A DNA stretch of 16,951 nucleotides from Nanohaloarchaea archaeon PL-Br10_U2g5. Its GTDB lineage: Archaea > Halobacteriota > Halobacteria > Halobacteriales > Haloferacaceae. The position numbers and the translations under genes were made by a program. The DNA lies in the NCBI GenBank assembly GCA_001564205.1, contig LKMY01000016.1, positions 1 to 16,951 of the forward strand, given 5' to 3'. Positions 1,752 to 14,919 of this stretch are shown in pieces (positions within the stretch are counted from its first letter, which is position 1; each line of letters begins with the position of its first letter). The notes under the pieces were generated by a model, which was given only the letters and a program-made list of their open reading frames with translations, was not told the DNA's origin and did no database searches.

Positions 1752-2753
1752 ATGACTGAACGAGTCGCAGCCACGCCGGGGCTGTACCCGCTTCCGGACT
1801 GGGCGAAAGAGACGCTTTCGGACCTCAAGGGCCACCAGAAGGGTGACCTGTTGAGCGGTGACGAGAGCGAGGCGATAGTCGAGCAGTACGACGAGGTGCG
1901 CGCGGAGTACGTCGGCGACCAGCTAGACGCCGGCCTCGACCGGGTCGTCGAGGGGCAGGGTCGCTGGGACGACATGATCGCACACCCCCTGACGGTCCAC
2001 GACAGCGTCGAGACCGGGGGAATCGTCCGCTACTACGACAACAACAACTTCTACCGCGATCCGCGGGTCGTCGACGACCTCGATTTCTCCGGCGACGTCG
2101 CGGCCGAACTGGAGTCCGCGGTCGAGCTCATCGACGGCGACGCCCCGCTCGCGGCGACGCTCCCGGGTCCGTACTCGCTCGCACAGCTCGCGACCGACGA
2201 ACACTACGGCGACGCCGCGGAGTTTCAGGCCGCTATCGCCGACTTCCTCGCCGGCGAGACCGAGGCGTTTCCCGCCCACGAGACGCTGTTCCTCGTGGAG
2301 CCGTCTCTCGTCACTGACGCACCCGCCGAGGGCGAGGAATCGGTCGCGACAGACGCGATTGCGACGGTCGCCGACGTGACGGACGCCGAGGTCGTCGTCC
2401 AGACCGCGTACGGCGCGCTCGACGAGAAGCTGTACGCCCACCTCGTCGACGAGGCGGGCGCGGACGCGCTCGGCTTCGACCTCGTCGCGGGCGACCGCGA
2501 CGACACGGTGTACAACGTCCAGGAGTACGGCGCAACCGACTCGCTCGCGCTCGGGCTCGTCGACGGGCAGAACACGCTCGTCGAAAAGCCGGAGACGCTC
2601 GCCGAGCGCGTCGAATGGTTCGAGTCGCAGGTCCCCGCCGAAGGATTCGAGACGACGTATCTGACGCCGAACACCGAGCTGTTCTATCTCCCTTCGAACA
2701 AGTACCGCGCGAAGCTGAACGCCCTTGCCGCCGCCGTGGAGGTGCTCGACTAA
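1752..2753 (+). CDS. Split methionine synthase, N-terminal barrel-like subunit (MetE-related, zinc ligands absent)
   Basis: A 333-aa TIM-barrel protein of the UROD/MetE superfamily. TLPGPYSLAQLA is the counterpart of PITGPYTLGFWA in the next gene, which shows the two are paralogous barrels. The zinc-ligand positions of the catalytic barrel are not kept: HVCYGD in the partner corresponds to QTAYGA here, and SPDCGL to TPNTEL. In full-length cobalamin-independent methionine synthase (about 750 aa) the N-terminal barrel likewise lacks the zinc site, so this probably plays the N-terminal-domain role, such as structure and methyl-donor binding. The ATG at 1752 is preferred over the GTG at 1749 because the TATA spacing fits and the sequence starts MTERVAATPG. 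It overlaps the next gene by three bases (TAATG). Confidence 0.75.
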   Translation: MTERVAATPGLYPLPDWAKETLSDLKGHQKGDLLSGDESEAIVEQYDEVRAEYVGDQLDAGLDRVVEGQGRWDDMIAHPLTVHDSVETGGIVRYYDNNNFYRDPRVVDDLDFSGDVAAELESAVELIDGDAPLAATLPGPYSLAQLATDEHYGDAAEFQAAIADFLAGETEAFPAHETLFLVEPSLVTDAPAEGEESVATDAIATVADVTDAEVVVQTAYGALDEKLYAHLVDEAGADALGFDLVAGDRDDTVYNVQEYGATDSLALGLVDGQNTLVEKPETLAERVEWFESQVPAEGFETTYLTPNTELFYLPSNKYRAKLNALAAAVEVLD

Positions 2754-3823
2754 TGGTCCGAACTCCCGAAGCAAACCGCGAACAGTTCCGCCCGCACGAC
2801 CACCCGAACGACTCGTTCCTGCTGACGACCGTCGTCGGCTCCTACCCGAAGCCGAAGTGGCTCAACCGAGCCGACGAGCTCGTCGACGATCCCGAGTCGA
2901 AGTTCGACGCGGCCGACCTCGAAGAGGCCCACGACGACGCCTGCCGACTCATCACCCACGAGCACGAGCGCGCGGGGCTTGACACGGTCGTCGACGGCGA
3001 GATGCGCCGCAACGAGATGGTCGAGTTCTTCGCCGAGCGCATCGACGGCTACGAGTTCAACGGCCCCGTCAAAGTGTGGGGTCACAACTACTTCGACAAG
3101 CCGTCGGTCGTCGAAGACGTCAGCTACGACGAGCCGTGGCTCGTCGACGAGTTCGAATTCACCTCGAACGTCACCGAGCGTCCCGTCAAGGTGCCGATTA
3201 CGGGCCCCTACACGCTCGGCTTCTGGGCGTTCAACGAGGCGTACCCCTCCACCGAGGAGCTCGTCTACGACCTGGCCGACCTCGTCAACGAGGAGGTCGA
3301 GAAGCTCGTCGAGGCCGGCGCGCGCTACATCCAGATCGACGAGCCCGCGCTGGCGACGACGCCCGAGGACCACGCCATCGTCGGCGAGGCCTTAGAGCGG
3401 ATCGTCTCCGGGATTCCCGAGGACATCCGCATCGGCCTCCACGTCTGTTACGGCGACTACTCGCGGATCTACCCCGAGATCAACGACTACCCGATAGACG
3501 AGTTCGACGTCGAGCTGTGTAACGGCGATTACGAGCAGATCCCGACGTTTCAGGATCCCGAGTTCGAGCCCGACCTCGCGCTCGGCGTCGTCGACGCACA
3601 CACGGCCGAGATCGAATCGGTCGAGGAGATCAAAGCGAACATCCGCCAGGGGCTCCGCGTCGTCCCGCCGGAGAAGCTCACGATCTCGCCCGACTGCGGG
3701 CTGAAACTGCTCCCGCGCGAGATCGCGTACGGGAAGACGGAAGCGATGGTGACCGCGGTCCGCGAGGTCGAAGCCGAGATCGACGCCGGCGAGATCGACC
3801 TCGACAACCCGCTCGACGACTGA
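2753..3823 (+). CDS. metE: Methionine synthase catalytic subunit (MetE C-terminal barrel, zinc site intact)
   Basis: A 356-aa cobalamin-independent methionine synthase catalytic barrel. It transfers a methyl group to homocysteine bound to a catalytic zinc. The expected zinc ligands are all visible: His230 and Cys232 (GLHVCYGDY), Glu254 (DVELCNGDY) and Cys315 (ISPDCGLK). The IDEPAL motif is at residues 195-200. The length is half that of bacterial MetE, and the missing half is the upstream gene. The ATG at 2753 shares bases with the upstream stop (TAATG), so the pair should be translated in a coupled way in near-equal amounts. A longer in-frame extension back to 2615 lies inside the upstream gene and is rejected. 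The methyl donor in haloarchaea cannot be read from the sequence: it may be a folate/pterin or a corrinoid. Confidence 0.85.
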   Translation: MVRTPEANREQFRPHDHPNDSFLLTTVVGSYPKPKWLNRADELVDDPESKFDAADLEEAHDDACRLITHEHERAGLDTVVDGEMRRNEMVEFFAERIDGYEFNGPVKVWGHNYFDKPSVVEDVSYDEPWLVDEFEFTSNVTERPVKVPITGPYTLGFWAFNEAYPSTEELVYDLADLVNEEVEKLVEAGARYIQIDEPALATTPEDHAIVGEALERIVSGIPEDIRIGLHVCYGDYSRIYPEINDYPIDEFDVELCNGDYEQIPTFQDPEFEPDLALGVVDAHTAEIESVEEIKANIRQGLRVVPPEKLTISPDCGLKLLPREIAYGKTEAMVTAVREVEAEIDAGEIDLDNPLDD

Positions 3824-3929: not shown

Positions 3930-3982
3930 TCGTTTATAAGCGATCGAGCGGTGTTGCTGTCGGATATTTATAACTGATCGAG
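3930..3982. repeat. Two direct copies of a TATA-containing 15-mer
   Basis: TTATAAGCGATCGAG (3934-3948) and TTATAACTGATCGAG (3968-3982) differ at two bases and start 34 bp apart, about three helical turns. The first is part of the near-palindrome TCGTTTATAAGCGATC (3930-3945), which recurs with one change at 4239-4254, on the far side of the hairpin-rich stretch. The motifs could be tandem TATA promoters firing into that stretch or the ends of a mobile unit. Confidence 0.5.
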
Positions 3983-4004
3983 AACTCCGCAGTGAAGGCC
4001 TCCA

Positions 4005-4134
4005 AAGCCCCAGCGGCTGCGGACGGCGCACGCTCGCTGCGCTCCTCGTCACTCGCATTGCTCGTTCCTGTGGTGCTTACGTCGCCTGCGCTGTCCGCAG
4101 CGCCTGCCCCTTTGAATCCCACCCGCCCCGCACA
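4005..4134 (+). other. 5' module of the hairpin-rich intergenic element, with a long-range stem
   Basis: No plausible gene lies in 3824-4440. Within this part GCGGCTGCGGACGGCGC (4013-4029) can pair with GCGCTGTCCGCAGCGC (4088-4103), giving a long, slightly imperfect stem around a roughly 58-nt loop. It runs directly into repeat copy A. This module is absent from copy B. Function is unknown; a structured RNA or a non-autonomous mobile element are the main options. Confidence 0.4.
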
Positions 4135-4254
4135 GCACCGCACCTCGTACCTCCCCAGCCTCGTCGGTCGCCTGCGGCGACCGACTCCCTCGCGGGCTCC
4201 TCGCGCCCGTTGGGCGCTCGGAGGCGCGCCACCGCCGTTCGTTTATAAACGATC
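4135..4254 (+). repeat. Dispersed hairpin repeat, copy A
   Basis: One of two copies of a structured repeat in this window; the other is inverted at 10287-10422. In order it has the conserved block ACCTCCCCAGCCTC (4149-4162), then hairpin H1 with a perfect 10-bp stem and 3-nt loop (4163-4185). The block TCCCTCGCG (4186-4194) follows, then hairpin H2 (4197-4223) with stem CTCC/GGAG, a TC/TC internal loop, stem GCGCCC/GGGCGC and loop GTT. Next is the block GCGCGCCACCGC (4224-4235), and finally palindrome H3, TCGTTTATAAACGA (4239-4252). The blocks are nearly identical in the two copies, whereas the stems differ in sequence but stay paired. Confidence 0.75.
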
Positions 4255-4410
4255 ATCGCGGCCGCCCATGGCCATTTAAATACCGTATCGCCGCTACCGA
4301 TCTGAAATACCCACTCCTGTCGTCACTCACCGCTGTGTCTGTACTGAGCGATTACAGTATATAAAGAGGCCAACTGAAACCCAACGGAACCACTGAGCCA
4401 GCGGCATCAC

Positions 4411-4440: not shown

Positions 4441-5190
4441 ATGGACATCGGCCTCACCGTCGGCGACGACCTCGATCGGCTCGCGGCGGCGTCGGAGCGG
4501 TTCGACTTCTACGAGCTCGGGATCGGTGAGCCGACGCTCGTGCCGGGCGACATCGACCCCGACCGACTCGACCGGGCGCTCGCCGGCCGCGACCTGCTCG
4601 TTCACCTGCCGTACAGCCAGCCGCTGACGAGCTACGCGCCAGAAGTCAACGAGGCGATCGTCGCCTACCAGCGTCGGCTGCTCGACGCCGCCGGCGACCT
4701 CGGCGCGGAGAAGGCGGTCCTTCACGCGACCTCCGCCGACCGCGACGACGTCGACTTCCGGGACGTCGCTGCCGACCAGCTTCGCCGCGTCGCCGACGCC
4801 GGCCGCGAGGCGGGCGTTGAGGTCGTCGTCGAAAACGTCGGTCACCAACACAAGGGGCTCCAGCTCTCCGTGCTCGGCGAAATCGCCCGCGAGACCGACA
4901 CGCCGATCTGTTTCGACGTCGGTCACGCGTACATGGAGGGCGGCAACAAAGCGATCAAGCGGTTCCTCCGGGACCACGGCGACCGAATATCGCATCTCCA
5001 CTGTCACGACGTTCGCCGCCGCGGCGACACGCACATTCCGGTCGGAGCCGGTGAGGTCGACTACGACATCGTCGAATCGGAGCTTGCGGGATTCGACGGC
5101 ACCGTCGCCTTAGAGGTGTTCACCGACGACGAGACCCTTCTTTTCGACTCCGCCGAGCGCGTGACAGACCGGCTCGGTTCGAGCTTTTAA
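4441..5190 (+). CDS. Sugar phosphate isomerase/epimerase-like TIM-barrel protein
   Basis: A 249-aa protein of the xylose isomerase-like/AP-endonuclease-2 barrel superfamily. The likely metal-site residues fall at the ends of successive strands: His55 (LLVHLPYS), His95 (AVLHATS), Glu131 (VVVENVGH), Asp159 and His162 (ICFDVGHAY), His187 and Asp190 (HLHCHD), His198 and Glu225 (VALEVF). Such proteins bind one or more divalent metals and isomerise keto-sugars or, in other branches, cut DNA at abasic sites. The short length and the FDVGH motif favour the sugar isomerase branch. The substrate cannot be told. The ATG fits the TATA spacing, and the gene appears monocistronic, ending 32 bp from a convergent neighbour. 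Confidence 0.75.
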   Translation: MDIGLTVGDDLDRLAAASERFDFYELGIGEPTLVPGDIDPDRLDRALAGRDLLVHLPYSQPLTSYAPEVNEAIVAYQRRLLDAAGDLGAEKAVLHATSADRDDVDFRDVAADQLRRVADAGREAGVEVVVENVGHQHKGLQLSVLGEIARETDTPICFDVGHAYMEGGNKAIKRFLRDHGDRISHLHCHDVRRRGDTHIPVGAGEVDYDIVESELAGFDGTVALEVFTDDETLLFDSAERVTDRLGSSF

Positions 5191-7417: not shown

Positions 7418-8512
7418 CTACTCGAACCGCCCGCGCCGGTACTGCACCGGCCACTCGATGTCGGCACCGAGTTCGTGGGCGGCTTCCAACGGCCAGTACG
7501 GATTCCGAAGCAGTTCGCGGCCGAGCGCGACGAGATCCGCTCGTCCGTTCCGAACCAGCGCGTCGGCGTGTGTCGGCTCCGTGATCCCGCCGACTGCGGC
7601 GACAGGCACGTCGGTGGCTTCTCGGATCGCCTCGGCGTAGGGGACCTGATACCCCGGACCCGTGCCCGGGAGCTGTTGGTCGGGATGGATACCGCCGCCG
7701 GAGACGTCGATCAGGTCGGCGCCGGCCTCGGCGAGCAGCGGCGCGAGACGCACGGAGTCCTCGATGCCCCACGAGTCGCGGTCCGGAAGCCAGTCAGTCG
7801 CAGAGATCCGCACGAAGACGGGTTTGTCCTCGGGCCACACGTCTCGGACGGCTGTGACGACCTCGCGAAGCAGTCGGGTGCGGTTCTCGAAGCTGCCGCC
7901 GTACTCGTCCTTACGGTCGTTTGCGGCCGGTGAGAGGAACTGGTGGAAGAGGTAGCCGTGGGCGGCGTGGACCTCCGCAACCTCGAAGCCGGCGTCGAGC
8001 GAGCGCGCCGCGGCGTCGGCGAACGCGTCCACCACGTCCTCGACGTCGCCGGTGTCCATCCGGCGCGTCTCGGCAAGCGCATCGGCCTCGGGGTCCGGAT
8101 ACGGCTCGTCGGTCGCCGATATCGTCTCCCACCCGTCTTCGTGGCTTCCGGGGATCGGACCGCCACCCTCGGCGGGCGGGTGATGTGAGGCTTTGCGGCC
8201 TGCGTGTGCCAGTTGTATTCCGGGCGTCGCACCCTGTGACCGGACGAACTCGACGATCGGTTCGAGCGCCTCGGCGTGTTCGTCCGACCAGATCCCGAGA
8301 CAGCCGGGGGTGATTCGTCCGCGCCCTTCGACGGCGGTCGCTTCGGTCATGACGATCCCGGCCCCGCCGACAGCGCGGCTACCAAGGTGGACCCGGTGCC
8401 ACTCGTTCGCGAACCCGTCGTCCGCGGAGTACTGACACATCGGCGAGAGCATCACCCGGTTGCGAAACTCGGTGTCGCGCAGGGAGAACGGTGTGAAAAG
8501 CGACTCTGTCAT
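7418..8512 (-). CDS. Old yellow enzyme, YqjM-type NADPH:flavin ene-reductase
   Basis: A 364-aa FMN-dependent TIM-barrel oxidoreductase. Cys26 and Tyr28 in SPMCQYSADDG are at the same numbers as in Bacillus YqjM, which marks the thermophilic-like OYE class. The substrate-anion pair is His182/His185 with Tyr187 (VHAAHGYLFHQF), followed by NDRKDEYGGSFENR. FMN phosphate contacts lie in VGGI and ALGRELLRNP, and the C-terminal YRRGRF supplies the arginine finger used in dimers of this class. These enzymes reduce activated C=C bonds of enones using NAD(P)H; the natural substrate is usually unknown. The length matches the family (about 340-370 aa). The ATG begins the standard MTESLFTPFSL opening. Confidence 0.9.
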   Translation of the reverse strand: MTESLFTPFSLRDTEFRNRVMLSPMCQYSADDGFANEWHRVHLGSRAVGGAGIVMTEATAVEGRGRITPGCLGIWSDEHAEALEPIVEFVRSQGATPGIQLAHAGRKASHHPPAEGGGPIPGSHEDGWETISATDEPYPDPEADALAETRRMDTGDVEDVVDAFADAAARSLDAGFEVAEVHAAHGYLFHQFLSPAANDRKDEYGGSFENRTRLLREVVTAVRDVWPEDKPVFVRISATDWLPDRDSWGIEDSVRLAPLLAEAGADLIDVSGGGIHPDQQLPGTGPGYQVPYAEAIREATDVPVAAVGGITEPTHADALVRNGRADLVALGRELLRNPYWPLEAAHELGADIEWPVQYRRGRFE

Positions 8513-9041: not shown

Positions 9042-10232
9042 ATGCACGCGATACGGAACGGAACCGTCCACACGGCGACTGATCGCGGAACGATCGACGG
9101 GGACCTCCTCCTCGACGACGGCGAAATCGTCGCGGTCGGTGACATCGAAATCCCGGCCGAAGCGACCGTCATCGATGCCAACGGCTGTCACGTGACGCCC
9201 GGACTCGTTGACGCCCACAGCCACGCGGGGATGGCCGAGTGGGGCGAACCGGAAGACGGAGATATCAACGAAGGAACTGACGCGGTGACGCCCCACGTGA
9301 ACGCGCTTGACGGCTTCCACCCGCGCGACGAGGAGCTGAAACACGCGTTCCAGAACGGCGTCACGTCGGTCTCGGCCCGAATGGGCTCGGGAAACGTGAT
9401 CGGCGGCGTCATCTGTTCGATGAAGACGCACGGTCGAACCGCGGACGAGATGCTCATCCGCGAGGACGGGATGAAAGCCGCGATGGGGGAGAACCCGAAG
9501 CGCTTCCACGGCGAAGAGCAGGGTCGACAGCCCTCGACGCGTCCGGGCGTCGCAGCGACGCTCCGGCAGGCGCTGATGGCGGCCGAAGACTACGTCGACG
9601 GTCGGGCGCACGCCCGTAACGAGGGCGAGCCGTTTGAGCGCGACCTCGGGATGGAGAACCTCGCGCGGGTCCTCACCGAGGGGTTCCCGCTGCGCGTCCA
9701 CGCGCACCGCGCCGACGACATCATGACGGTGTTCCGGATCGCCGAGGAGTTCGGGATCGACGCGCTCTCGATCGAGCACGCGACGGAAGGCCACTTGATC
9801 GCCGAGGCGTTCGCCGAGCGCGATGTCCCCGCGGTGGTCGGACCGTCGCTGTACTCCGGCGCGAAGTACGAGCTCCGAAACATCACCTTCGAAACTCCTG
9901 CGATCCTCCACGAGGCCGGTGTGACAGTCGCGATCCAGACCGACGCGCCCGTGCTCCCGCAACAGCACCTCGACGTCTGTGTCGGGCTCGCGGTGCGCGA
10001 GGGGTTCCCGGAGGACGCGGCGCTGGCGGCCGTCACGCGGCACCCGGCGGAGATACTTGGTATCGACGACCGCGTGGGGACGCTCGAACCGGGCACCGAC
10101 GCCGACGTGGCGGTGTGGGACGGCGTCTTCCACGAGAACGGGAGCCGGACGGAACACGTGTTCGTCGACGGGGAACACGTCTTTGACCGCGAACGCGACG
10201 CGGTCGACCCGCGCGAGGAGTACGACTGGTAG
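9042..10232 (+). CDS. Amidohydrolase, imidazolonepropionase-like
   Basis: A 396-aa metal-dependent hydrolase. It has the small beta-sandwich at both ends (VIDANGCHVTPGLVDAHSHA; VGTLEPGTDADVAVWDG) wrapped around a TIM barrel. Metal ligands are His59 and His61 (DAHSH), His220 and/or His222 (RVHAHRADD), His246 (SIEHATEGH) and Asp301 (IQTDAP). Lys128 in SMKTHG is at about the place of the bridging carboxylated lysine of some subtypes. It resembles HutI/ATZ-type amidohydrolases, which open cyclic amides or remove amino groups; the substrate is not evident, and no histidine-degradation genes are nearby. GTTATG at 9013-9018 is at TATA distance from the ATG. The reading frame ends EEYDW, and the stop codon lies inside the first unit of a 24-bp tandem repeat. 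Confidence 0.85.
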   Translation: MHAIRNGTVHTATDRGTIDGDLLLDDGEIVAVGDIEIPAEATVIDANGCHVTPGLVDAHSHAGMAEWGEPEDGDINEGTDAVTPHVNALDGFHPRDEELKHAFQNGVTSVSARMGSGNVIGGVICSMKTHGRTADEMLIREDGMKAAMGENPKRFHGEEQGRQPSTRPGVAATLRQALMAAEDYVDGRAHARNEGEPFERDLGMENLARVLTEGFPLRVHAHRADDIMTVFRIAEEFGIDALSIEHATEGHLIAEAFAERDVPAVVGPSLYSGAKYELRNITFETPAILHEAGVTVAIQTDAPVLPQQHLDVCVGLAVREGFPEDAALAAVTRHPAEILGIDDRVGTLEPGTDADVAVWDGVFHENGSRTEHVFVDGEHVFDRERDAVDPREEYDW

Positions 10233-10294
10233 GCGGTAGCGGTCGATGATTGGTAGGCGGTAGCGGTCGATGATTGGTAGGCGGTAGCGGTCGA
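10227..10294. repeat. 24-bp tandem repeat, 2.8 copies, spanning a stop codon
   Basis: The units start at 10227, 10251 and 10275 and are identical over TGGTAGGCGGTAGCGGTCGA plus TGAT; the third stops after 20 bases. The first unit contains the last codon and stop (TGG TAG) of the amidohydrolase, so the repeats are tandem duplications of the gene's end. The last arm, GCGGTCG, forms half of hairpin H3 of repeat copy B. Confidence 0.9.
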
Positions 10295-10422
10295 TACGAC
10301 CGCAGGTTGCGGTGGCGCGCTCCGGTGAGCGCCTTAGAAAGGCGCGAACCGAGCGCGAGGGAGGTCGGACGGGCGCTTATAAGCGCCCGTCCGACGAGGC
10401 TGGGGAGGTGTGAGGGCGGTGC
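10287..10422 (-). repeat. Dispersed hairpin repeat, copy B (inverted relative to copy A)
   Basis: Read on the minus strand this repeats copy A. It has GCACCGC (10422-10416), ACCTCCCCAGCCTC (10409-10396), then H1, a perfect 32-bp palindrome (10395-10364) centred on TTATAA. The block CTCCCTCGCG follows. H2 (10356-10317) has stem GCGCTCGGT against ACCGGAGCGC with one bulge, a TC/TC internal loop, stem GCGCCTT/AAGGCGC and loop TCT. Then come GCGCGCCACCGC and H3, a 7-bp stem with 3-nt loop (10303-10287). Every stem differs from copy A while the pairing is kept. Confidence 0.75.
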
Positions 10423-10423
10423 G

Positions 10424-10463
10424 GAAGTAGCGTAGCGGGAAGCGAAGTAGCGTAGCGGGAAGC
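10424..10463. repeat. 20-bp direct repeat, two perfect copies
   Basis: GAAGTAGCGTAGCGGGAAGC occurs at 10424-10443 and 10444-10463 with no mismatch. Internally each unit also has AGTAGCGTAGCG, a shorter near-repeat. It lies immediately beside repeat copy B. Confidence 0.9.
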
Positions 10464-10480
10464 AAAGCCGCGTAATGCAG

Positions 10481-10530
10481 CGTGGAGAAGCGTGGAGAAG
10501 CGTGGAGAAGCGTGGAGAAGCGTGGAGAAG
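10481..10530. repeat. 10-bp tandem repeat, five perfect copies
   Basis: CGTGGAGAAG is repeated five times without interruption, flanked by CAG before and CGTCGAAGG (a degenerate sixth unit) after. It lies just after the stop of the minus-strand gene at 10540. The purine-rich strand is the plus strand. Copy number is likely to vary between strains. Confidence 0.95.
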
Positions 10531-10539
10531 CGTCGAAGG

Positions 10540-11091
10540 TCAGTGGAACCCGCGGTCGACATCGTCCTCGTCTATCAGGTCTTCCAGCTCCGACGACAGC
10601 AGTTTTTCGGCCTCGTCGAAGGTGTCGGAGAGCTCGTCGAGCTCGTCCGGCCGCCCGTCGAACGCGTAGTCCATCGGGCCGAACGCGGGAGAGTCGACGG
10701 CCTCCATCACGTCTTCGAACAGGTGATCCGGGCTCGTCGGCGCCTCGGCGTGGACTCGTAGGGTCTCCCGCAGTCGCGTCGCCATCTCTTCCGCCTGCTC
10801 GGCGTCTTCCGGAGCCGACCGCACCGCGAACCGTCCCGCCGCCTCCTCGTCCGGAAGCAGCGGATCGAGGTCGCCGTCGACCCGCCGGGCGACTCGAGCC
10901 CCGACGCCGCGGAGGTCCCGCGGGTTCTTCGCGTACGTCTTCAGGTGGTAAACGCCGACGCTCGGATGGCCGAAGTAGAGGTCCTCTCCGAGCCCCTCGC
11001 GTCGGGAGCCGGCGACGGCGCGCCAGCCGTCGGGGTCGGTCGAATCGCTCGCGACGTCCGCGAGGATATCGTCCCAGTCTCGTACACGCAT
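10540..11091 (-). CDS. Conserved haloarchaeal protein of unknown function
   Basis: A 183-aa acidic soluble protein with no signal or membrane segment. A recognisable stretch is EDLYFGHPSVGVYHLKTYAK (around residues 35-54), followed by VGARVARRVDGDLDPLLP. The last third is helical and very acidic (DELSDTFDEAEKLLSSELED) and ends EDDVDRGFH. The opening MRVRDWDDILADV and the YHLKTYAKNP core match a haloarchaeal hypothetical protein family as I remember it; no function is known to me. The ATG at 11089-11091 is chosen because family members begin MRVRDW. ATGs at 11106 and further upstream are in frame and cannot be excluded, and no clear TATA box separates the options. It is the last of three minus-strand genes. 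Confidence 0.7.
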   Translation of the reverse strand: MRVRDWDDILADVASDSTDPDGWRAVAGSRREGLGEDLYFGHPSVGVYHLKTYAKNPRDLRGVGARVARRVDGDLDPLLPDEEAAGRFAVRSAPEDAEQAEEMATRLRETLRVHAEAPTSPDHLFEDVMEAVDSPAFGPMDYAFDGRPDELDELSDTFDEAEKLLSSELEDLIDEDDVDRGFH

Positions 11092-11160
11092 GTTGGTCTC
11101 ATTCATCGGCGAGTCCGCTTGAGCATGTCGGTGACTCGACTCGCGGATCACTGCGCCGCC

Positions 11161-11220
11161 GACCGCCACACCATAGACTCACTCATCGCAGATCGCCGCA
11201 CCATCGACTCACTCATCGCC
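11161..11220. repeat. 30-bp imperfect direct repeat, two copies, spanning a stop codon
   Basis: Units 11161-11190 and 11191-11220 match at most positions and share GACTCACTCATCGC exactly. The second unit carries the stop (TCA at 11209-11211, minus strand) of the membrane protein gene, and the first repeats that context after the stop. It is therefore a tandem duplication of the gene's 3' end, as at 10227-10294. Confidence 0.8.
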
Positions 11221-12105: not shown

Positions 12106-12216
12106 GCCGCCGCTCGGAATCCGGCTGCCGGCGAACGTCGTCAAAGACGACCCCGTTCCACCCTGTCAGACCTCTCTCACCGACAGCGTTTTTCCGTGCG
12201 GGCGCAGATGTGGGGC

Positions 12217-14919
12217 GTGAACGTTCGGGGGCCGATCCTCTCCGTCGGAGACGAACGGACGGTGTCGACGTCGTACGGCGAGCGGGACCTCCGCGAGCTT
12301 CGTGTCCGGCCGGAACGCGGGGCCGCCGACGCCGTCGACGTAACGCTGTGGGGGAAGTGGACTGAGACCGCCGAGCACGCCGAACCGGGGATGGAGCTAC
12401 TCGTCACCGACGCCGACGAAGACGAGTTCGGCGGCGAGACGGGATACGCGACGACCGGCGACTCGTGGGTCGTCCTCGAACCCGACTTCCTCGTCGACGT
12501 GACCGGGATCCGCTCGTGGGTACAGTGCCCGCGGATGTACTACTTGAACAAGCTCTCGGGGATCCCGCTCAACTACCCGGTGATCAAGGGGACGATCGTC
12601 CACGAGGTGTTCGGCGACCTGCTGCGCGGGATGGAGATGGACGAGTCCATCGCGGACCGCGTCGAGGAGGCCGGCCTCGAACTCGGCCTGCTGGGATACG
12701 AGCCCGAGGAGGTCGCCGACGAGGTGCGTCGCAACGCCGCCGCGATCGAGGGCTGGCTCGCGCAGGGGACGCTCACCGACGAGGACACGTGGCGGTCGGA
12801 GTTCACCCTCATCTCGCCGACGTTCGGATTAAAAGGGCGTGCGGACGCCCTTCGACGGGGAACGCCCGTCGAGTTAAAAACCGGAAAAAACACCAAACGC
12901 GAGCCGCGATTCCACGACAAGGTGCAGGCGGCCTGTTACGCGCTCATGCTCGACGAGCGCGGCGTCGACCCGGATATCGGTACCCTCCTGTATACGAAAA
13001 ACACCGCGCTCGACCGCAACGAGGAGTCGGGCGATCTCGCACCGGCGAAAGAGTTCTCGGTCGGTCGCGGCTTCCTGGAGTTCGTCGTCCGCGAGCGAAA
13101 CGCTCTCGCAGCGATGGAGTGGCGCGGGCTCAACGACCGAAGCGAGCGCCCGACGGTTCCCACGGGATACGAGGCCGACGCGACCTGCCAGTACTGCTTC
13201 GAGCAGGACACCTGCATGGTCGTCTCCGGCCGCCTCGATCAGGAGTCGAAGGCCGGTCAGGTCGGGACCGCGGTTCCCGACGAGGAGCGCGACTACTTCG
13301 ACCGTTTTTATACAGCCTTGGAAGAGGAGCGCCGCGAGACCCACGCGGAGTACCGGAAGCTGTGGGAGCAGACGCCCGCGGAACGCGCCGCAGATGACCG
13401 TGCGCTGATCGATCTGGAGCCCGTCTCACAGACGGAGATCGCGGAGAACCGCTGGCGACTCCGCGCTCGCAAACCTGACGACGCCGTCTCCAAGCTCCGT
13501 GAGGGCGACGTGGCGCTCGCGAGCGACGGCGACCCCGTGAGCGGCCACGGAGAGCTCGGCCGCATCGTCGAACTCGGCGAGGCGGTCGTCGTCGAGACGG
13601 ACGAGCCGGTCGAGCTTCGACGGCTCGATGTCTACCCCTCCGAGATCTCCGTGGATCGCTCGCTCACGGCGCTCCACGACGCGATCTTAAAAGGTAGCGA
13701 GGAGCGAAAGGACGTCCTCTTCGGTCGCCGCGAGCCGGTGTTCCGGCCGCCCGGTGATCGTCCCACTGATACCTCCGACACCCCCGGCGCCTACATCGAC
13801 AACAACGACGCCCAGAACGAGGCGGTGTCGCTCGCCGTCGACGCCGAAGACTGCGCGCTGATCCACGGCCCGCCCGGCACCGGAAAGACGTACACCATCG
13901 CGCGGACGATCCGCGCGCTCGTCGACGAGGGGAACCGCGTGTTGCTGTCGGCGTTCACGAACCGCGCCGTCGACAACGCGCTCGAAGCGCTGCGGGATCA
14001 GGGGTTTGACCACGTGCTACGAGTCGGGACCGAAACCGGCGTCCGTGACGACATGCAGGACATCCGGCTCGTTCAGCGCGGCGACCCGAACGCGAAGGCC
14101 GCAGAGCTGCGCGACGCGCCGGTCATCGCCGCGACGACCGCCGCCTGCGGCTCCCGCGTGATGCGAGAGTGCGAGTTCGACGTGGCGCTCGTCGACGAGG
14201 CCTCACAGCTTACGGAGCCGGGAACCCACGCCGCGATCAACCTCGCGGGCCGGTTCGTCCTCGTGGGCGACCACGAGCAGCTACCGCCCGTGGTCCGCGC
14301 CGAGAACGACCTCCAGACGTCCCTCTTCGAGCGGCTCATCGAGCGCTACCCGGACGCGAGCGTCATGCTCGATCGGCAGTACCGGATGAGCCAACGGATC
14401 CAGGCATTCGCCTCCACGGAGTTCTACGACGGCGCACTCCGTCCGGCGACGCCCGAGGTCGCCGGCCAGACGCTCGCCGACCTCGGTGTCGACCCCGCAG
14501 ACCTCCCCGACGGGCTCGCCGACGGCGTGGGATTCGTCGACCCCGACGGGACCCGCGACGGGAATCGAAACGTCCGGGAGGCCGAGCGCGTCGCCGAAAT
14601 CGTCGACGCCTACGTCGCCGCCGGCGTCGAGCCGGACGACATCGGCGTCATCGCCCCGTTCCGCGCGCAGGTCGCGGAGATCGGCAAACGGACCGCAGTC
14701 ACGGTCGATACGGTCGACCGCTTCCAGGGCTCCTCGAAGGAGGTGATCCTCGTCTCGCTGGTCGCCTCGGGGGACCTCGACGGGCCGATATTCGATGACC
14801 ACCGACGGATGAACGTCGCGCTCACCCGCGCGAAAAAACAGCTGACGCTGGTCGGCGACGCGGACGCGCTCTCGTCGGACCCCTTTTATCACCGGATGCT
14901 CGACTGGGCGCGGCGCTGA
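12217..14919 (+). CDS. Dna2-like Fe-S nuclease / superfamily 1 helicase
   Basis: A 900-aa enzyme joining three parts. Residues 1-95 look like an OB-fold-type beta domain. A RecB/Dna2-type nuclease follows, with Asp210 (GRADAL), Glu219-Leu-Lys221 (VELKTGKN) and Gln237/Tyr241 (QAACY). It is framed by the Fe-S cysteines Cys104 and Cys324-x2-Cys327-x5-Cys333, the Dna2/AddB/Cas4 arrangement. The SF1B helicase has Walker A GPPGTGKT (551-558), motif Ia SAFTNRAVDNAL, Walker B VDEAS (659-663), motif III VGDHEQLPP, motif IV RQYRMS, motif V VDRFQGS and motif VI NVALTRAKK. In eukaryotes Dna2 trims flaps and resects DNA ends. GTG 12217 (MNVRGPIL) is preferred because a T-rich box (12188-12195) is at TATA distance and the conserved sequence begins there; in-frame GTG 12196 and ATG 12208 remain possible. 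Confidence 0.88.
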   Translation: MNVRGPILSVGDERTVSTSYGERDLRELRVRPERGAADAVDVTLWGKWTETAEHAEPGMELLVTDADEDEFGGETGYATTGDSWVVLEPDFLVDVTGIRSWVQCPRMYYLNKLSGIPLNYPVIKGTIVHEVFGDLLRGMEMDESIADRVEEAGLELGLLGYEPEEVADEVRRNAAAIEGWLAQGTLTDEDTWRSEFTLISPTFGLKGRADALRRGTPVELKTGKNTKREPRFHDKVQAACYALMLDERGVDPDIGTLLYTKNTALDRNEESGDLAPAKEFSVGRGFLEFVVRERNALAAMEWRGLNDRSERPTVPTGYEADATCQYCFEQDTCMVVSGRLDQESKAGQVGTAVPDEERDYFDRFYTALEEERRETHAEYRKLWEQTPAERAADDRALIDLEPVSQTEIAENRWRLRARKPDDAVSKLREGDVALASDGDPVSGHGELGRIVELGEAVVVETDEPVELRRLDVYPSEISVDRSLTALHDAILKGSEERKDVLFGRREPVFRPPGDRPTDTSDTPGAYIDNNDAQNEAVSLAVDAEDCALIHGPPGTGKTYTIARTIRALVDEGNRVLLSAFTNRAVDNALEALRDQGFDHVLRVGTETGVRDDMQDIRLVQRGDPNAKAAELRDAPVIAATTAACGSRVMRECEFDVALVDEASQLTEPGTHAAINLAGRFVLVGDHEQLPPVVRAENDLQTSLFERLIERYPDASVMLDRQYRMSQRIQAFASTEFYDGALRPATPEVAGQTLADLGVDPADLPDGLADGVGFVDPDGTRDGNRNVREAERVAEIVDAYVAAGVEPDDIGVIAPFRAQVAEIGKRTAVTVDTVDRFQGSSKEVILVSLVASGDLDGPIFDDHRRMNVALTRAKKQLTLVGDADALSSDPFYHRMLDWARR

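Follow-up and report, generated by a model that had tools for sequence, protein, structure and literature searches.

The two hairpin repeats of the window (the whole stretch of 16,951 nucleotides analyzed here) belong to a family in which, at stable sites, individual slots have their hairpin exchanged for another as a complete unit. The first-pass annotation had suggested that the two copies, A and B, might be members of a repeat family, and a search of other haloarchaeal genomes with the conserved blocks indeed yielded a high-copy, mostly intergenic family of multi-hairpin elements. We assign a probability of roughly 0.6 to the reading that these are REP-like, non-coding, mostly intergenic DNA elements, found in Halorubrum and certain relatives, in which other copies supply the sequence that overwrites a hairpin. 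Each copy can be described as a row of hairpin slots (H0, H1 and H2) linked by conserved unpaired blocks, where, in a given slot, one hairpin has often been overwritten by another; the overwriting itself is observed, and other copies are its probable source.

When the sequence was re-read, the blocks common to copies A and B were found in the same order, as had been described, and the H1 hairpins, reported as a 10-bp stem in copy A and a perfect palindrome in copy B, were recovered at 4163-4185 and 10364-10395 (32 nt), respectively. The TC/TC internal loop of H2 is likewise present in both copies; in copy B it reads TTC/TCA, i.e. TC/TC next to a T-A pair. Copy A does not start at 4135, where its beginning had been placed: the element extends back to about position 4000 and includes a further large hairpin, H0. 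The stretch previously called copy A makes up the 3' half of the full element, whose CTCCAAAGCCCC block and H0 come before the linker and the core, and copy B is the core only, without H0 and with simple repeats on both sides. The features are the following.

3933-3939 and 3967-3973, plus strand: two TTTATAA boxes 5' of copy A; similar boxes flank loci L123 and L127 at the orthologous site
4000-4011, plus strand: conserved block CTCCAAAGCCCC, the 5' limit of long-form copies; the same block is found in many copies
4003-4114, plus strand: H0 of copy A, a large hairpin with closing stem CAAAG...CTTTG; the stem sequence varies among copies
4115-4149, plus strand: C-rich unpaired linker with variable CCGCA/CAGCA units
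4150-4162, plus strand: block 1 of copy A, CCTCCCCAGCCTC
4163-4185, plus strand: H1 of copy A, 10-bp stem and 3-nt loop
4186-4194, plus strand: block 2 of copy A, TCCCTCGCG
4192-4230, plus strand: H2 of copy A; its internal loop is TC/TC, read as GA/GA on the complement
4224-4235, plus strand: block 3 of copy A, GCGCGCCACCGC, the 3' end of the element
4242-4281, no strand assigned: pair of AT boxes about 32 bp apart, TTTATAAA at 4242-4249 and ATTTAAAT at 4274-4281
10396-10408, minus strand: block 1 of copy B
10364-10395, minus strand: H1 of copy B, 32-nt perfect palindrome
10354-10362, minus strand: block 2 of copy B
10314-10356, minus strand: H2 of copy B
10309-10320, minus strand: block 3 of copy B

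The sequence CTCCCCARCCTC is matched exactly at 4151-4162 (plus strand) and 10396-10407 (minus strand) and, with one mismatch allowed, has 3 matches in the window compared to 0.17 expected in shuffles. For GCGCGCCACCGC, found at 4224-4235 (plus) and 10309-10320 (minus), the 2 matches compared to 0.94 expected (at least 2 in 48 of 200 shuffles) are weak evidence when taken alone. Both cores did better than dinucleotide shuffles: folding of the copy A core gave z = −2.5 and −2.4 for the two strands, and that of the copy B core gave z = −6.1 and −6.9. According to Pfam, copy A lies between a methionine synthase-type gene (2615-3823, plus) and a xylose isomerase-like TIM-barrel gene (4441-5190, plus), and copy B between an amidohydrolase gene (9042-10232, plus) and an ORF without a Pfam match (10540-11169, minus). 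Three short tandem repeats, perfect or near-perfect, surround copy B (10227-10295, 24-bp unit; 10424-10467, 20-bp unit; 10479-10533, 10-bp unit) and occupy the place that AT boxes and H0 have in other copies. The window also encodes a Dna2-like protein with superfamily 1 helicase domains (12196-14919), with no link to the repeats.

A scan of public genomes gave at least 118 stretches with two exact blocks separated by a gap of 12-42 nt; almost all come from records with Halorubrum in their name, the rest including some in Halorussus, Halobellus and Haloprofundus. With a gap of 10-60 nt, the pattern was present in 64 of the 170 genomes compared at the family level, that is, in every one of the 52 genomes in the Halorubrum genus group (between 3 and 124 copies each) and in 12 genomes beyond it (e.g. 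86 copies in G075, 60 in G172 and 12 in G162); the reversed pattern, used as a control, had zero matches throughout these 170 genomes. Outside that family, Halorussus halobius carries 42 copies. A covariance model of the core had matches at E ≤ 1e-6 in 51 of 292 genomes of the class, in a scan with strict filters and at most 13 candidates scored per genome, such that copy counts saturate. BLAST against genome G128 detected additional diverged copies besides the 70 exact ones, and in most genomes the two orientations of the copies are about equally frequent. The protein encoded downstream of copy A has a match in all 52 genomes of the Halorubrum genus group, the best being 88% identical, which places the window in Halorubrum or a near relative. 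A plasmid or phage element was rejected as an identity for the repeat, given that blastn of the copy A core gave no match in plasmid and phage collections at E 1e-5, a search that diverged copies could escape. No description of this repeat family was found in the open-access literature, subscription papers being mostly outside that search.

Some copies are unusual in form. In G075, which represents another genus-level lineage, the listed H1 have long GC stems, with loops made of a variable number of 5-nt CCGCA-like units. The H1 at G119:C1:29945-30011 is built of long G and C runs and is probably an assembly error or a slippage product. At L316:1129-1526, a 63-bp unit is repeated in tandem (6.3 copies, 99% identity) directly 5' of an element; the unit consists of the 5' block and an AT box, and partial units precede other copies.

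Conservation of the unpaired blocks across the family and preserved pairing of the stems, both claimed previously from two copies, hold in the alignment and in arm-shuffle tests. The 252 copies contain 181 unique H1 sequences, of which the 179 that are at least 21 nt long were tested by shuffling the 3' arms among copies. With their own arms, positions 1-9 were paired at a frequency of 0.899 (mean 0.643, maximum 0.669 in 500 arm shuffles), and positions 4-10 at 0.844 (mean 0.503, maximum 0.545). In an alignment of 45 sequences, comprising copy A of the window and 44 of 45 references (L087 was left out), 90.0% of the cells were paired compared to 73.9% with the 3' letters shuffled, and the covariation score was 0.389 compared to 0.135, neither value being reached in any of 500 shuffles. 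Both sides changed at 19 of 27 pairs, and pairing fell to 23-46% when partner columns were slid by 1-3 positions. The alignment was drawn from 117 cores, reduced to 78 with distinct H1 after a filter on H1 and H2 length, so that very long and very short hairpins are absent from these covariation counts. As to copies with unpaired stems, which had been named as grounds against selection on a fold, pairing is imperfect in some copies, and no copy among the 252 pairs at fewer than 4 of the 7 outermost H1 positions, all 7 being paired in 185 copies, 6 in 28, 5 in 33 and 4 in 6. Single compensated base pairs do occur, with 85 pairs of unique H1 differing at one stem pair with both sides changed and 71 pairs of unique H1 showing a one-sided difference at a single stem pair.

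Slow compensatory mutation is not, however, the main reason why copies differ. Genome G128 and genome G004 (H. tebenquichense) are about 95% identical, and 30 of their copies (from 70 and 56, respectively) could be matched as orthologous by aligned flanks on both sides, with median flank identities of 0.946 and 0.948. At these sites H1 identity reached at least 0.9 in 7 cases and lay between 0.75 and 0.9 in 4; in the remaining 19 it was under 0.75. The median H1 identity, 0.68, equals that of random copy pairs (0.68). Where the hairpin could be cut out, H2 was at least 0.9 identical at 5 of 22 sites and H0 at 9 of 23. The same is seen in the loci at the place of copy A: L123 and L127 (compared among plus-strand loci only) have an element with the same blocks and similar TTTATAA flanks but with other H0, H1 and H2. 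Corrected for a background of 0.073, the 7 retained hairpins out of 30 suggest, as a rough estimate, that half of the hairpins are replaced in approximately the time of 2% flank divergence.

It could be argued that short-read assemblers joined different repeat copies and so mimicked stem replacement, the more so because G004 is a draft with N in some of its hairpins (2 of 30, both counted as replaced). This explanation is highly improbable: both flanks are syntenic at every paired site, and the effect is stronger between two genomes whose copies lie on chromosome-length contigs. That comparison, performed to exclude draft-assembly error, paired G128 with G156 and yielded 41 shared sites from 70 and 99 copies (99 of the 113 G156 copies were used), with flanks 90.1% identical. 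H1 was at least 0.9 identical at only 3 of 41 sites, H2 at 0 of 28 and H0 at 2 of 34, all near the random level.

Whole-hairpin replacement explains why stems differ among copies and are still paired. The earlier interpretation of the co-varying stems as a sign of selection on a fold is thus not supported as stated: both arms change together at orthologous sites because the whole hairpin is replaced, and therefore much of the covariation is cassette exchange, which delivers stems that pair with no need for stepwise compensation. The kept TC/TC loop and the conserved blocks nevertheless make selection on the fold plausible, although covariation alone is no proof of it here. Among 154 unique H2, the TC/TC loop with stems on both sides is found in 86, and CT, GA, CC, GG, TT, AC and CA in its place were found in 0 cases each, which is evidence that the fold itself matters.

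As for the source of the new hairpins, 44 N-free hairpins from sites of replacement were compared with other copies: an identical H1 exists at another place in the same genome for 17 of them and in the other genome for 6; at 0.9 identity or above, donors were found for 37 of 44 in the own genome and for 35 of 44 in the other. The probability that two random copies have identical H1 is 0.0137 and 0.0078 within the two genomes and 0.0077 between them. Because H1 identity is hardly higher within than between genomes, directional homogenization is weak.

The types of H0, H1 and H2 are unlinked among copies in both G128 and G004, as judged by the number of copy pairs alike at both slots compared to the mean of shuffles. 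For G128, these numbers were 7 vs 9.7 for H1-H2, 4 vs 6.4 for H0-H1 and 10 vs 6.7 for H0-H2 (72 of 500 shuffles as high); for G004, 11 vs 15.7, 8 vs 9.9 and 14 vs 10.7 (96 of 500 shuffles as high), respectively. The outer and inner halves of one H2, by comparison, are linked (202 alike vs a mean of 146 and a maximum of 204 in 300 shuffles). In five G128/G004 pairs (L185, L215, L223, L233 and L250), H0 was kept at 0.90 or above while H1 was below 0.75. The absence of linkage between slots, together with the near-random identity of H1 at shared sites, indicates that hairpins are exchanged as separate cassettes, with breakpoints that probably fall in or near the conserved unpaired blocks.

Hairpins are also gained and rearranged. 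A 47-bp two-hairpin unit in block 2 of L327 is absent from the orthologous L303, a clean insertion, and a second two-hairpin insert is present in L328, within its H2 end. In L325, H0 has been lost and block 2 contains a train of hairpins with 6-nt linkers. The linker TGGCAGCC had hairpins on both sides in 10 of its 29 occurrences in the loci sampled. Two-hairpin inserts with the TGGCAG linker, in conserved blocks or beside H0, were seen in L327, L328, L325, L016 and L029 and may represent a separate miniature mobile element. In three H1 hairpins of G156 (15 sequence pairs), the loop is inverted relative to hairpins with the same stem, which fits a DNA-level event within the hairpin.

Under the overwriting scenario that we favor, replication would stall at hairpins, or hairpins would favor strand exchange, and the short homology for template switching or short-tract gene conversion would come from the conserved blocks; one hairpin would thereby be replaced and its neighbors left. 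Haloarchaea are polyploid and have active gene conversion. Selection would probably act on the blocks and require that each slot hold some hairpin able to fold, whatever the sequence of its stem. An alternative, which we consider unlikely, is a genome-wide hairpin-exchange system in which a dedicated enzyme acting on hairpins folded in one strand swaps, inverts and inserts them as wholes among tens to more than 100 chromosomal sites, the conserved single-stranded junctions being maintained because of a scaffold function.

The strand that folds bears on a further alternative. On the strand considered in the first-pass annotation, stem mismatches comprised 27 A.C and 6 G.T (18:5 in H1 and 9:1 in H2), or 20 and 6, respectively, when distinct contexts were counted; a smaller earlier set of copies gave 22:1, and the larger set is preferred. 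An A.C mismatch on this strand is G.U or G.T on the complement, and the excess of A.C over G.T is thus a hint that the folded strand is probably the complement, although the H0 stems, with no asymmetry (18 G.T, 21 A.C), and the one-sided H1 differences, also without asymmetry (31 involving G.T, 27 involving A.C), disagree. Read on the complement, the TC/TC loops are tandem G.A, a known stable motif. On the complement strand, 62 of 187 copies have a TATA-like box that precedes the core by 13-30 nt, compared to 1 of 752 control windows; a second peak lies some 30 bp beyond the first. The usual TATA-to-start spacing would place the predicted start within H2, so that this is no clean promoter for the whole fold; still, a TATA-like box at a fixed distance leaves room for a transcribed function.

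The complement strand could give rise to a structured non-coding RNA (or single-stranded DNA) whose hairpins may have any sequence that folds. Together with G-rich unpaired blocks and the tandem GA motif, these hairpins would form a scaffold that binds a protein or RNA. The 27 to 6 mismatch ratio, the retention of GA/GA loops, the enrichment of the box and the strong covariation would fit such a molecule, although cassette exchange can also produce covariation, and the symmetric H0 mismatches, the one-sided H1 counts, the start predicted inside H2 and the lack of orientation preference relative to genes (tandem 23 vs 21) count against it. Rfam gave no match at either copy, also against this reading; cmscan of the window at E ≤ 1 returned only mir-278 at 8233-8294, below the gathering score. 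On balance, we regard the RNA as possible but somewhat unlikely. Several G tracts are apparent by reading on the complement strand, and a G-quadruplex role was considered for them and set aside; in the part of the literature source consulted, abundant repeated G4 motifs are reported only in a methanogen family (PMC8044849).

With regard to genomic placement, 128 copies were examined using a home-made gene caller; 10 overlapped a called ORF, 19 were at a locus edge and 99 were classified. The latter comprised 44 in convergent gaps, 23 in tandem with and 21 against the complement strand, and 11 in divergent gaps, compared to 76 convergent, 71 divergent and 150 tandem among all gaps longer than 150 nt in the same loci. 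Copies prefer gene ends, without an orientation preference, as is the case for REP elements. Between close species, copy sites are fairly stable: five G004 copies that had not been matched to a G128 copy were examined, and four of these have an element at the orthologous G128 site, whereas the fifth site is element-free, with 475 bp of unrelated sequence instead. No clean empty site, as used to look for target-site duplication, was found among these 5 sites. Across the genus, an element is located within 1.5 kb upstream of the gene following copy A in 5 of 28 loci (30 were returned, and L125 and L146, without upstream sequence, were set aside; the match in L129, counted among the five, is loose and reversed). 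For the copy B gene, an element lies in the 1.2 kb that follow it in 2 of 19 loci. A general cis-regulatory role for neighbor genes was rejected because the element is at the orthologous place in few species (5/28 and 2/19). Spread of whole copies to new sites would be REP-like and old or slow, judging from copy numbers that are uneven between genomes and from sites that are poorly conserved across the genus.

Two known element classes had been named as candidates alongside non-coding RNA. The REP-like non-coding element stood as the best reading, whereas the terminal inverted repeats of a MITE are absent: by reading, the 5' end CTCCAAAGCCCC does not match the reverse complement of the 3' end, GCGGTGGCGCGC. 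A REP/REPIN-type element in the strict sense would be moved in trans by a RAYT-like Y1 transposase that recognizes hairpins on one strand. Copy number, intergenic position, avoidance of divergent promoters and the presence of Y1 transposase domains (PF01797) in 11 of 13 genomes are compatible with this possibility, but no Y1_Tnp match was found in G008 (42 copies) or G013 (50 copies), for which assembly completeness was not given. Furthermore, the hairpin of REP elements is conserved in sequence, and here it is the variable part: a conserved palindrome was not found, with 181 unique H1 in 252 copies, and the unpaired blocks are conserved instead. Transposition by such an enzyme appears quite improbable.

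Among known systems, as far as the sources seen in part describe them, the REP, BIME and REPIN elements of bacteria appear closest to the haloarchaeal family in genomic habit, being high-copy extragenic hairpins, but their palindromes are conserved and tied to RAYT genes, whereas the haloarchaeal stems vary (PMC3116915). In behavior, the closest appear to be the GC clusters of yeast mitochondria. These GC-rich palindromes are non-coding; they merge and shuffle, and a given homologous site may carry them in different forms (PMC4478555, in the part available); shuffling and merger of palindromes at homologous sites are likewise found in the haloarchaeal family. The GC clusters are short mobile clusters in an AT-rich organelle genome (PMC4478555), whereas the haloarchaeal family consists of longer elements on archaeal chromosomes whose fixed slots exchange hairpins. 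Sponge mitochondrial hairpin elements are interspersed hairpin repeats as well, sometimes double or triple, but from the portion consulted they show the opposite pattern, with conserved stems and varying loops (PMC2800124), the stems being variable in the haloarchaeal family. The PATE and SMR repeats of Haloquadratum, haloarchaeal non-coding repeats with palindromes, seem closest in host, and the short repeats there insert into palindromes of others, resembling the two-hairpin inserts described above. The palindromes of PATE are near-terminal and related to IS605-type transposons; exchange of cassettes is not among the features described in the part of that source seen (PMC3119063). The intergenic repeats of HF1-like haloviruses, so far as the excerpt describes them, are alike in name and host group, but are AT-rich, have promoter activity and are located in a virus genome (PMC7230728).

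The family is a natural example of stems that stay paired yet differ between relatives for reasons other than slow compensatory mutation. Tested for covariation in the standard way, it would be called a conserved RNA, although cassette exchange explains much of the signal. These elements also provide a measurable system of very short-tract exchange between archaeal chromosomal repeats.
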